Assembly: GCA_902826815.1 (NCBI GenBank) | Contig: CADEGF010000005.1 | Coordinates: 25,243 to 89,242, forward strand | Direction: 5' to 3' | Source of the DNA: an uncultured Mycobacteriaceae bacterium | Lineage (GTDB): Bacteria > Actinomycetota > Actinomycetes > Mycobacteriales > Mycobacteriaceae | Length of the DNA: 64,000 nucleotides | Shown: piece after piece, positions 1,138 to 37,291 of the stretch | Layout: every line of letters starts with the position of its first letter | How positions within the stretch are numbered: position 1 is the stretch's first letter | The notes under the pieces: generated by a model | Told to the model about the DNA's origin: nothing | Seen by the model: the letters and a program-made list of their open reading frames with translations, nothing else | Database searches by the model: none | Program-made: the position numbers and the translations under genes

Positions 1138-4100
1138 ATGAATGACGTGGTCGACAGCTATCAGCTGTCGCCGATGCAGCTCGGCATGTTGTTTCACGCC
1201 GTGAGTGAGCACCCCGCAGGCATCGACATCGAACAGATCGTCATCACCGTGCGCGAGCCGCTTGACCTGGGGGCCTTCGAGAAGGCCTGGCGCAGTGTCG
1301 TGGCGCGATACGCAATCCTTCGCACGCGATTCCGGTGGCAGGATGTCGCCGAGCCGTGCCAGGAGGTGCTGGCGCATACCGAGATGACTCCGACCATCGC
1401 CGACTGGCGCGACCTAGGGCCAGCCGCCGCGGAAGAGCGCTTCGACGCCCAGCTCCGCGCCGATCGCGGGCGCGACTTCGACCTGTCACAGGCGCCGATG
1501 ATGCGCCTCTTCATCGCTGCGCTGCCCGACGACGAATGGCGCGTCCTGTGGACGTTCCACCACGCGCTGCTCGACGGTCGCTCGTTCGCCGTCGTGCTTC
1601 GCGAGTTATTCGCGCTGTACGACGCAGGCCTTGGCGGCGAGACCATCGACCTGCCTGCCGCGCGACCGTACCGCGAGTACATCGAGTGCCGTCAGTCGCT
1701 CGAGGCCGCGAACGACGAAGAATTCTGGCGGGCCGCACTGGGCACCTTCAGCGCACCGACACCGCTCACGATCGGCGCACCAACGCCGGGGGACATTCCC
1801 GACGAGCCGTTCGGCTCGCGGCAGCACCGCCTCACACCTGAGCTGTCTGCTCAGCTTCGCGACGCGGCCCGTGACGCGGACGTGACGGTCAACACGATGG
1901 TGCAGGCAGCATGGGCCGTTCTCCTGCACCGCTACAGCGGCGAGTCGGACATCGTGTTCGGTGCGACCCGTGCCGGACGACGCACGGGACTCCCCGATGC
2001 GGACGACATGGTCGGCCTGTTCATCAACACGCTTCCGGTGCGAGTCGATGTCGACGACGATGCCGAAACCCTGCCGTGGCTGCGCTCGCTCCGCACGCAG
2101 CAAGTCGCTGTGCGCGGCCATGAGCACACCCCGCTGGCATCGGTGCAGGCGTGGAGCGGAGTCGCACGCGGCACACCGTTGTTCGAGAGCGCGATCGTGT
2201 ACGACCACCAAACGCTCGACGGGCGCATGCAGATGCCCGAGCGGCACTTCGAGTACATGGGTCAGACGAATTTTCCACTCGTGCTGATCGCCTACGGCGA
2301 CGACGAGATGCTGTTGCGGCTCGAGTATTCGACCGATCGCTTCTCGGCCGCGGCGATCGAGCGCATGCTCGCGCATCTGGTCAATCTGCTCAGATTGCTC
2401 GCCTGCGGCGATACGCCATTCGTGCGCGATCTTGATCCGACAAGCGCCGAAGAACGCGCGGCGCTGGTCGGTGGTGGTTCGGTCGCATCGTTTGCGGCGC
2501 CGGGCGAGACGCTGGACGCGGCGTTCGCGCGTCAGGTTGCGGCCAATCCGGAGGCGATCGCACTGAGCTGCGAGACAGCCTCGGGGCGGGTCGATTTGAG
2601 CTACGCCGAACTGGACCGACGCGCCGAGGCAGTGGCTGCTCACCTGCGTGGGCTTGGCATCGGACCCGATCAGCTGGTCGGTCTTCGCGTAGAGCGCAGC
2701 GCCGACGTCGTGGTCGGCATCCTCGCGATCCTCAAGTCAGGTGGCGCCTATCTGCCGTTGGACCCGGTCTATCCCAGTGAGCGGATCGCGTTCATGCTCA
2801 GCGACGCCGTGGTGCGGGTCGTGCTCACCCAGCGCGCGCTGGCGGGCGCCCTCGCCGAGTCACCAGTCGAATGTGTTTGTCTCGATGAGCCCCTGCCCGC
2901 GGCGGCCGAGGCGCCCCCCGCGCAGCCGAGGTCCTCCGACGATCTGGCCTACGTCATCTACACCTCGGGCTCCACCGGCAAGCCCAAGGGCGTTCGAGTC
3001 ACCCACCGCAATGTGCTGCGCTTGTTCGCCGCCACCGATCCCTGGTTCGGCTTTGGACCACAGGATGTTTGGACGCTGTTCCATTCCTACGCCTTTGATT
3101 TCTCGGTCTGGGAGATCTGGGGCGCGCTGTTGGCAGGCGGCCGCGTCGTCGTCGTGCCACTCGACATCAGCCGCGACCCCGCCACATTCCGTGATGTGTT
3201 GATAAGCGAACAGGTCACGGTGCTCAGTCAGACACCGACGGCGTTCCGGGCACTCGTCGACGCCGACCGCTCGGCCCCCCAGGCCACGTTCGCACTGCGT
3301 TACGTGGTATTCGGTGGCGAGGCATTGCAATTGCAAAGCCTCCAACCCTGGTTCGACCGCTACGGCGACGACACGCCGCGGCTAATCAACATGTACGGCA
3401 TCACCGAGACCACGGTGCACGTCACATACCGGCCGATCTGCACTGCCGACCTGCAGGCGGGCGCGGGCAGCGTGATCGGCATCCCGATCCCCGACCTTCG
3501 CGTCTACCTTCTCGACGCCAACGGCCAACCCGTGCCCGTCGGCGTGGCCGGCGAAATGTTCGTCGCAGGCGACGGCGTCGCCGATGGCTACCTGCAGCGC
3601 CCCGAACTGACCGAACAACGTTTCGTGCCAGACCCGTTCCACGGCGGACGCATGTACCGGACCGGCGATCTGGCCCGCCGCCTGGAAAGTGGAGAACTCG
3701 AATACCTCGGCCGCATCGACCAACAGGTCAAGATTCGCGGCTTCCGCATCGAGCTCGGTGAGATCGAGGCCGCCATCAGCGCGCACCCGGCCATCCGCCA
3801 GGTCGCCGTCATCGACCGTGAGGACACCCAAGGGGAGAAGCGGCTCGTCGCTTACCTGGTCACCGAGGCCCGACCGAAAACACTCATCAGTGAGCTCCGC
3901 GACACGCTGCGAACTCACCTGCCTGAGTACATGGTCCCGGCGCACTTTCTCTACCTCGATGCGCTGCCGCTCACCAACAACGGGAAACTCGACCGCAAAT
4001 CTCTGCCCGCCCCCCACCCCAGCCGCAATCAACGCGGCAGCGCCTTCGTCGCACCGCGCAACACCGCCGAGGAGACGATCGCGGACGTCTGGAAGGCCGT

Positions 4101-35743: not shown

Positions 35744-37291
35744 TCAGTAGGCCCCACGACGCTCGACGACAGCGCGCAGGGTTTTAGCGATGATCAGGAT
35801 GTCCCCGACCATCGACCAGTTGTCGACGTACGAAAGATCAAGGCGGACGGCCTTGTCCCACGGCAGATCTGAACGACCGCTGACCTGCCACAGGCCAGTG
35901 ACGCCCGGCTTGACGAGCAGCCGCCGCTGCACGTCGTCGTCATAGGCTTCGACCTCACGCCTCAGCGGCGGTCGCGGGCCGACAACGCTCATCTCCCGAC
36001 GTAGCACGTTGATGAACTGCGGAAGCTCGTCAACGCTGAATCGGCGGAGCACCCGACCGACCGGTGTGACGCGCGGATCGTTCTTCATCTTGAAGAGCAG
36101 CCCGTCGCTCTCGTTTGCACTCAGCAAGTTCGGCAGCTCTTTGTCGGCATCGTCGATCATCGTGCGGAACTTCAACATCATGAACGGTCTGCCGTCGATG
36201 CCGATCCGCTCGGCTTTGTAGAAGACCGGACCCTTGCTGGTCAGCCTGACGGCGATGCCGGCGGCCAGAAGCACCGGCAGTGCGGCCGTCAGTGCGGCGA
36301 GCGCGAAGGTGAAATCGAACGCTCGCTTCTGGAACCGTTTGGCTCCCTGATACTGCGGCTTGTCTATGTAGAGCAGCGGCAGTCCCGCTATCGGACGCAT
36401 CACCAACCGCGAACGGGCGACATCCATGACACCGGGCGAGACGACAAGCTCGACACCCATTGGCTCGAGCTCCCAGATGAGCTTCCGAATGCCCTTGACG
36501 CCGAAATGGTCGGTGCCCGCAATCGCGACCTTGTCGGCCCCGTAGCCGCGGATGGCTTCAAGGACGTTGCCGTCTCCACCGACGATCGGAATCTGTCGAC
36601 CGTTGATGGTGAGGTGTTCTCCGCACGGTTCGCCGTAACCGGGAATGGCGATCCCGACGACGCGATATCCGTAGTCCGGGCTGCTGGTCAGCTCACTGGC
36701 AAGGTTTGCGACGGCGTCCCGGTCTCCGATGGCTAGTACCGATGTTTGGTACCGCCCCGCCCTTCGCTGACGGACCCCGTAGCCACGCCACTGCCAGCGG
36801 CTGAGAACGAGCCCGACGATGCCGACGGGGAGAGCCACCGCGAGGTAGCCGCGGGATACTTCCAGCTTCATCAACAACTCGGCGATGGCGACTACGCCGA
36901 ACGTCCAGAACGACGCCGCGACGACTCGCCGATATTCCTCGATCCCCGCTCCCACATGCTTCGGCGATCGGGTCCGCATGCCTGCGAGAGCGGCCAGCCA
37001 GATGCCGATGAGAACCGCCGAGTAGAGCGTTTCGTAGTGGGTGATCAGGCTGTCGGCCGCCGGTGTGCTACCGAACCTGGCGTACTGCGCCAGCAATACG
37101 GCTGCGCAGACCACGATCGCGTCGGTGATAAGGAGATAGCTGGTGAACCTGCGTTCCCAGTTGGAACGCTCCCCGAGCTGCGCGACCGGCGCAACCGCGT
37201 TAGGCCGAACAACTGTGAGCTCGGGGCGACCCGGACTCAGCACGTCATCGCGTGCTCCCGCGTATGCACCCTGGCCGTGTTGCATGACCAT
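35744..37291 (-). CDS. Polyprenyl-phosphate sugar phosphotransferase (priming enzyme)
   Basis: A 515-aa protein of the WbaP/CpsE type. It has about four N-terminal membrane segments (50-160), a soluble CoA-binding-like middle domain (VLAIGDRDAVANLASELTSS) and a fifth membrane segment near 330. The catalytic bacterial sugar transferase domain follows (KRAFDFTFALAALTAALPVL, GPVFYKAERIG, KFRTM, RFSVDELPQ, GPRPPLRREVEAY, KPGVTGLWQVSGR). It transfers a sugar-1-phosphate from a UDP-sugar to undecaprenyl phosphate and so starts each repeat unit. An alternative ATG lies at 37285. A 13-bp GC-rich hairpin lies in the leader just upstream. Confidence 0.9.
   Translation of the reverse strand: MVMQHGQGAYAGARDDVLSPGRPELTVVRPNAVAPVAQLGERSNWERRFTSYLLITDAIVVCAAVLLAQYARFGSTPAADSLITHYETLYSAVLIGIWLAALAGMRTRSPKHVGAGIEEYRRVVAASFWTFGVVAIAELLMKLEVSRGYLAVALPVGIVGLVLSRWQWRGYGVRQRRAGRYQTSVLAIGDRDAVANLASELTSSPDYGYRVVGIAIPGYGEPCGEHLTINGRQIPIVGGDGNVLEAIRGYGADKVAIAGTDHFGVKGIRKLIWELEPMGVELVVSPGVMDVARSRLVMRPIAGLPLLYIDKPQYQGAKRFQKRAFDFTFALAALTAALPVLLAAGIAVRLTSKGPVFYKAERIGIDGRPFMMLKFRTMIDDADKELPNLLSANESDGLLFKMKNDPRVTPVGRVLRRFSVDELPQFINVLRREMSVVGPRPPLRREVEAYDDDVQRRLLVKPGVTGLWQVSGRSDLPWDKAVRLDLSYVDNWSMVGDILIIAKTLRAVVERRGAY

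Follow-up and report, generated by a model that had tools for sequence, protein, structure and literature searches.

An NRPS-PKS unit beside polysaccharide genes

The stretch of DNA analyzed here, hereafter the window, comprises 64,000 nucleotides of contig CADEGF010000005.1 (assembly GCA_902826815.1) from an uncultured Mycobacteriaceae bacterium, and it begins with a modular peptide-polyketide assembly line placed next to genes for polysaccharide synthesis of the Wzx/Wzy type. Four genes on the plus strand form the unit in question: a nonribosomal peptide synthetase (NRPS1, 1138..7404), a hybrid of polyketide synthase and NRPS (PKS-NRPS, 7406..15253), a stand-alone thioesterase with a TubC docking domain (TE, 15250..16233) and, as last gene, wzx (16230..17750), encoding a Wzx-type flippase of the MOP/PST family (PF13440, E 1.2e-54; also PF01943). 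One base separates NRPS1 from the PKS-NRPS gene, the stop of the latter overlaps the TE start by 4 nt (GTGA), and the TE stop overlaps the wzx start by 4 nt (ATGA). A sequence-only reading of this DNA had stressed this 1-nt gap and these two overlaps, and the coordinates confirm them. It had also placed Wzy, Wzz, the priming transferase, glycosyltransferases and nucleotide-sugar genes beside the unit, which is borne out by profile matches, those for Wzz staying below cut-off. The remaining sugar genes occupy three strand blocks of their own: 17761-21449 on the minus strand, 21602-26267 on the plus strand and 26264-37291 again on the minus strand. Hence, wzx is the only sugar-locus gene lying within the NRPS unit.

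According to Pfam, motifs and alignment of the adenylation code, NRPS1 has the order condensation-adenylation-thiolation-epimerization-condensation-thiolation (C-A-T-E-C-T). Its Pfam matches comprise three to domains of the condensation type, one to an A domain and two to T domains, the E domain being assigned by its HHLVVDG and NYLG motifs. The aligned A-domain code is DFWSVGMVHK, which we take to be Thr-like because it is close to the code DFWNIGMVHK that we associate with Thr. The PKS-NRPS, assigned in the same way and by a structure match, reads ketosynthase-acyltransferase-acyl carrier protein-aminotransferase-C-A-T (KS-AT-ACP-AMT-C-A-T). Its AT domain carries an HAYH motif and is presumably malonyl-specific. 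The AMT domain, placed after KS-ACP and before C, is a class III aminotransferase with the pyridoxal phosphate lysine, and its best match is mycosubtilin synthase subunit A (6kfm, E 1.3e-121). The second A domain has by alignment the code DAWDVGAVQK, matched to no substrate. The domains of both megasynthases carry what we take to be their catalytic motifs. Pfam revealed no fatty-acyl loading domain in either of them, NRPS1 beginning with C and the PKS-NRPS with KS. The TE, recognized by Pfam, starts with a TubC-type docking domain (match to 2jug, E 2.3e-4) and has Cys147 as nucleophile in the motif GFCAGG, this Cys being invariant in 6/6 TE orthologues. The structure model of the TE has a mean predicted local distance difference test (pLDDT) score of 69.6, with values below 50 at residues 178-202 and 220-230.

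Downstream of wzx, the first minus-strand block encodes a Tat-signal glycoside-hydrolase-like protein (GHL15; 17761..19197; PF14885, E 1.4e-7; TIGR01409), a protein without Pfam match (19276..20283, start assumed) and a GNAT-type acyltransferase (Acetyltransf_6; 20277..21449; PF13480, E 2.4e-26). The plus-strand block holds a UDP-glucose 6-dehydrogenase (21602..22930; best PDB match 4a7p, a UDP-glucose dehydrogenase), an RmlD-type dTDP-4-dehydrorhamnose reductase-like protein (22872..23885, start assumed; TIGR01214, E 4.8e-57, below cut-off) and two GT4 glycosyltransferases assigned by Pfam (23845..25035 and 25032..26267). On the minus strand again follow a double GT4 glycosyltransferase with two GT4 stretches in one frame (26264..28582; Pfam), an NDP-sugar epimerase/dehydratase of the short-chain dehydrogenase/reductase (SDR) type (28537..29571; Pfam, with NCBIfam below cut-offs), the Wzy polymerase (29568..30998; PF04932 over cut-off), a putative Wzz/BY-kinase-type chain-length regulator (31019..32458; PF02706, E 3.3e-4, and TIGR01007 (eps_fam), E 1.3e-12, both below cut-off), a Cupin/JmjC-type protein (32468..33316; PF13621, E 2.3e-32) and an NDP-sugar C-methyltransferase (33742..34692; PF08484/PF08421). 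The block ends with a second SDR-type NDP-sugar epimerase (34724..35710; Pfam), which has a 67-77% counterpart in the five other NRPS loci presented below, and with the priming polyprenyl-phosphate hexose-1-phosphate transferase (bacterial sugar transferase; 35744..37291; TIGR03025, E 2.3e-124, above cut-off). Priming transferase, Wzx and Wzy, the marks of a Wzx/Wzy-dependent locus, all scored above their cut-offs.

The product of wzx had been described as the only flippase of the window, which is correct and holds almost as well for the whole genome. Indeed, PF01943 matched this gene alone, and PF13440 matched it in full and, on another contig, a stretch covering just positions 178-286 of the 293 in the profile (29.1 bits, above the cut-off of 23). 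The search for a second Wzx gene dedicated to the sugar locus thus returned no other full-length match genome-wide. The Wzy_C profile (PF04932) likewise had a single match in the genome, the wzy of the window. Therefore, if a Wzy polymer is made in this organism, the Wzx whose gene overlaps that of the TE is the sole full-length flippase candidate.

Distribution and chromosomal site

Orthologous TE was chosen as marker of the NRPS-PKS cassette, and orthologous Wzy as marker of the sugar locus, because NRPSs are common throughout the genus: NRPS1 itself was dropped as a marker after 148/148 genus genomes matched it at E<=0.001. In the draw of 148 genomes, Wzx orthologues (43-49% identity) were found in four besides the genome of the window, exactly the four with Wzy orthologues; 31 further genomes with Wzx-like matches of at most 35% identity were not counted as orthologues. 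Among 396 genus genomes, a Wzy orthologue was present in 22 and a TE orthologue (61-74% identity) in six, the window's own genome included and a 29% match in genome G108 excluded; the two counts were taken as one draw on the agreement of size and genome handles. All six TE genomes are among the 22 with Wzy (hypergeometric p 1.4e-8, or 4.9e-6 when the similar loci of G177, G316 and G388 count once, both figures treating genomes as independent). In each of them TE and Wzy lie on the same contig, 13-34 kb apart. The 16 other Wzy genomes gave no TE match; four of their Wzy loci are on contigs shorter than 9 kb, the TE search having spanned whole genomes. The association is real but one-way. The supposition that NRPS and sugar parts always occur together, which either part without the other in many relatives would contradict, thus stands for the cassette, found only beside Wzx/Wzy loci (6/6), and falls for the sugar genes, which do without it in 16 of 22 cases.

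Beyond the genus, 371 genomes were drawn from the whole family, and Wzy was present in 21, the window's own included, spread over 10 of 31 genera. TE was matched in none of the 370 other genomes of this draw, 20 of them Wzy-bearing; the five NRPS-bearing relatives are absent from this TE result and were evidently not drawn. Of 52 wzx loci from a named collection, covered with flanks of up to 10 kb or less where a contig ended, only L076 and L092, which represent G144 and M. hodleri (G034), showed a condensation or KS match. It appears that a family-wide polysaccharide locus gained an NRPS cassette in a few mycobacteria.

The surroundings of the locus belong to sterol catabolism. In the window's genome, the left flank (L056:12795-15498) consists of KstD (L056 12795-14636, over cut-off) and a gene of 286 amino acids. 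The right flank (window 37932-45243), conserved and outside the locus, comprises the lipid-transfer protein/thiolase Ltp (37932..39092, minus strand; PRK07855 above cut-off), a P450 and a steroid 3-ketoacyl-CoA thiolase (FadA5-like). Both flanks were found in 8/22 Wzy genomes (G000, G034, G153, G170, G177, G196, G316 and G388), with different contents between them, and a single flank in G255, G304 and G373; neither was found in the stretches examined for the other 11 genomes, some of these stretches belonging to short contigs. Five of the six NRPS-bearing loci lie between KstD and Ltp. The contig of the sixth, G144, reaches neither flank, and its terminal gene is the one that stands beside Ltp in G153. 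The whole looks like a variable capsule-type island interrupting the sterol-catabolism cluster between KstD and Ltp.

Assembly lines and sugar genes of the relatives

The assembly line differs from one group of relatives to another. In G034 the cassette is reduced to one C-A-T protein and the TE. In G144 (L051:5349-14375) it consists of a formyltransferase-A-T protein and a KS-AT-ACP-TE, plus fragments, and in G177, G316 and G388 of KS-AT-AMT, C-A-T, C-A-T and TE. With that of the window, four different assembly lines are found across the six loci, all of which retain the TE and a place next to glycan genes. In the relatives' cassettes, the code DISSLCMLYK is common to every A domain but one out of eight, that of G034 having DIWCIVMVYK; neither code was matched to a substrate.

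The flippases follow their own course. The window's Wzx groups with that of M. vaccae (70% identity; support 100/99) and then with that of Pseudonocardia parietis (100/100). No NRPS was seen within the 8-10 kb examined on each side of these two wzx genes, and that of M. vaccae follows Wzy, glycosyltransferases and a GNAT gene. Between the window and G144, the TE is 75% and Wzx 49% identical, whereas between G034 and G177 the values are 62% and 71%, respectively. These opposite trends suggest a reshuffling between the cassette and the glycan genes, with exchange of parts, during which their linkage persisted.

One sugar gene accompanies the cassette. By clustering, the window's type of UDP-glucose dehydrogenase occurs in 5/6 NRPS-bearing loci as against 0/12 NRPS-free loci, the latter being those of at least 18 kb, with G274, G302, G324 and G368 dropped for contigs below 9 kb. 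In G177, G316 and G388 its gene lies next to the NRPS genes and is transcribed divergently from them. Another dehydrogenase family, GDP-mannose-dehydrogenase-like (G144 copy against 1mfz, E 1.7e-131), is present in 5/6 NRPS-bearing and 10/12 NRPS-free loci and absent from the window. The link between the first enzyme and the NRPS hints that the acceptor of the peptide could be a hexuronic acid or the sugar beside it. The GNAT gene was matched by tblastn at 1e-8 in 4/5 other NRPS-bearing loci and 0/16 NRPS-free ones (4/16 on contigs below 9 kb); it was not relied on as an NRPS partner, its identity being just 26-30% and clustering at 38% not placing it with the window's copy.

A predicted glycan side group and its alternatives

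We give a probability of about one half to the proposal that the glycan of a capsule-like Wzx/Wzy island is decorated here with the product of an accessory NRPS-PKS cassette lying in that island, the attachment itself being a prediction. In such a pathway, a Thr-like residue would be epimerized to the D form, extended with malonyl, transaminated to a beta-amino acid and joined to a further amino acid. The Cys TE, recruited through its docking domain, would then transfer the chain without hydrolysis to one of the sugars in the polyprenyl-linked repeat unit, probably the hexuronic acid provided by the NRPS-linked UDP-glucose dehydrogenase or its neighbor. The modified unit would be flipped by Wzx and polymerized by Wzy, the Wzz-like kinase setting the chain length, and in the window's strain, with TE and wzx translated in a coupled manner, the supply of modified units would keep pace with their flipping. 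The proposal draws on the confinement of TE to Wzy-bearing genomes, on the differing assembly lines that share TE and glycan neighbors, on the linked UDP-glucose dehydrogenase, on the invariant Cys of the TE and on the single full-length Wzx and single Wzy of the genome. Polysaccharides decorated with amino acids are described chemically in bacteria (PMC5852497, PMC3210612). A wider proposition is put forward tentatively: environmental mycobacteria might make a kind of surface polymer not described before, a Wzx/Wzy heteropolysaccharide whose repeat unit would receive an NRPS-PKS side group from a Cys TE before flipping, the assembly lines being swapped between species at one locus.

As in Wzx/Wzy capsule, exopolysaccharide and O-antigen loci, a priming transferase, glycosyltransferases, nucleotide-sugar genes, Wzx, Wzy and a Wzz-like protein are gathered here at a fixed variable site; unlike in those, a modular NRPS-PKS is aboard and wzx overlaps a TE gene. 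The class III aminotransferase after KS and ACP, which would give a beta-amino acyl chain, recalls the KS-ACP-AMT-C order of mycosubtilin and iturin synthases, from which the line differs in being short, in standing beside glycan genes and in showing no fatty-acid loading module. Cys replaces the usual Ser nucleophile as in the TE domains of obafluorin and sulfazecin, but the TE stands alone with a docking domain and has GFCAGG where Gln-Cys-Asn is given for SulM (PMC11298585). The predicted product is of the same type as the amino-acid-decorated polysaccharides of Colwellia (a capsular polysaccharide with Thr), Microbulbifer (GalNAcA-D-Ala) and Aeromonas (Qui3N-Ala-NAc); unlike the window, these involve single amino acids, and the consulted portions of their descriptions mention no modular NRPS-PKS. 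Mycobacterial glycopeptidolipid loci also combine NRPS and glycosyltransferases; they differ from the window, which has Wzx/Wzy polymer machinery and in which neither MmpL nor a separate fatty-acyl-AMP ligase was matched among the locus proteins scanned.

Several observations weigh against a decorated glycan. The Cys TE of the window could instead release a beta-lactone or another product, a Cys TE being reported to form the beta-lactone of obafluorin (PMC6668435). The second module of NRPS1 (5710-7404) is a C-T without A domain, no DegT-type sugar aminotransferase was matched among the window's locus genes scanned with Pfam, and no ligase joining peptide to sugar was identified. In G316, the TE (L183:13630-14730) has Asn at the position of the C-terminal His that all five remaining orthologues retain, and the G144 line is fragmented, its condensation domain being split between different frames and its second KS truncated; hence, not every cassette need be active. 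The KS of G316 is likewise in two tblastn pieces, and these interruptions are described as they stand, assembly error and decay being indistinguishable. The 16 Wzy genomes without TE also weigh against a decorated glycan. Furthermore, wzx lies among the sugar genes, 5-13 kb from the NRPS and TE genes, in 5/5 relatives, and the TE-wzx overlap is thus peculiar to the window's genome within the sample; the argument from co-translation made by the sequence-only reading is therefore not general. In the Wzx tree, the NRPS-bearing loci are spread over three clades that also contain other loci, and form no lineage of their own, and the idea of an NRPS-linked flippase acting as a peptide exporter of separate descent was rejected as a general rule on these grounds. 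The joint peptide-glycan product proposed by that reading is nevertheless sensible, since a single full-length Wzx must serve a single Wzy and the cassette is confined to Wzx/Wzy loci in the sample, although its co-translational basis is local. Its observation is thus confirmed and its interpretation partly supported.

It is unlikely that the NRPS-PKS is a mere neighbor of the sugar genes and yields a small molecule secreted on its own, such as a lipopeptide, a siderophore or a beta-lactone, with export by Wzx optional. MOP-family proteins can export small molecules, and the absence of the cassette from most Wzy genomes would be expected of a mere neighbor. Cys TEs are also reported to release beta-lactone and beta-lactam products (PMC6668435, PMC11298585). 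However, TE was never found apart from Wzy in the 396 genus genomes nor outside the window's own genome in the family draw, a particular sugar dehydrogenase accompanies the cassette, and the window's Wzx is 44-70% identical to flippases from loci that showed no NRPS. Persistent linkage also bears on hitch-hiking, in which the KstD-Ltp site would simply gather foreign DNA and cassette and glycan genes would share an address and not a function. The differing contents of the eight doubly flanked loci and the position of five of the six NRPS-bearing ones, the sixth contig ending short of both flanks, agree with such a hot spot. Against it, no sampled genome has TE without Wzy, the unequal divergence of TE and glycan genes suggests exchange with linkage kept, and TE and wzx overlap in the window, which makes shared location alone distinctly improbable. 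The peptide could finally be a lipid or aglycone anchor onto which the sugars are added, as in glycopeptidolipids. Mycobacteria make glycopeptidolipids with D-allo-Thr, the first A domain has a Thr-like code, and the N-terminal C domain of NRPS1 could take an acyl donor. We regard this as very improbable: the lack of MmpL and fatty-acyl-AMP ligase matches noted above speaks against it, and the presence of Wzy, of the Wzz-like protein and of a priming transferase for polyprenyl phosphate indicates a polymer built on a polyprenyl carrier.

Descriptions of the mycobacterial capsule usually name alpha-glucan, arabinomannan and mannan, and not Wzx/Wzy polymers. The statement that no described mycobacterial system has such a layout agrees with the literature searched (titles and abstract openings, with subscription journals largely outside), in which none was found. 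If the decorated-glycan proposal is true, the variable Wzx/Wzy locus (22/396) with its exchangeable NRPS-PKS cassettes (6) would provide a serotype-like surface polymer in the genus, and modular megasynthases would have a new role, their products being side groups of a glycan and not free metabolites. The proposal can be tested directly in named type strains: the cassette is present in M. hodleri DSM 44183, and the sugar locus with TE unmatched in M. chubuense DSM 44219 and M. manitobense DSM 44615.

Other amino-acid-activating genes were observed near such loci. Lone A domains, whose code we take to be Lys-like, lie in the Wzy loci of G034, G316, G388, G196, G307 and G368 (6/22), a seventh, in G177, being seen by tblastn only. 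These domains constitute a second means of activating amino acids near such glycan genes, and in G034 and G316 a flavin amine oxidase gene stands beside them. An independent locus in G108 (L185, G108:C9:28001-48000) combines a DegT aminotransferase, Wzx, a single-module C-A-T-TE with a Gly-like code and a priming-transferase match. These lone A domains and the G108 locus show that amino-acid activation recurs with such glycan genes, and support the decorated-glycan proposal by analogy.

Three other mycobacterial Wzx/Wzy loci (L050, L052 and L054) encode a GDP-mannose-dehydrogenase-like enzyme together with heparinase-like, polysaccharide-lyase and deacetylase proteins, which suggests a uronic-acid polymer; among the window's locus proteins scanned, Pfam gave no match of this kind. 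Upstream of NRPS1, the window carries a DUF218 (YdcF-like) gene (141..836, plus strand; PF02698), whose orthologue stands beside TE or wzx in several relatives: it adjoins the TE in G034, G177 and G388 (62-65% identity) and directly follows wzx in six Nocardia loci (48-62%).

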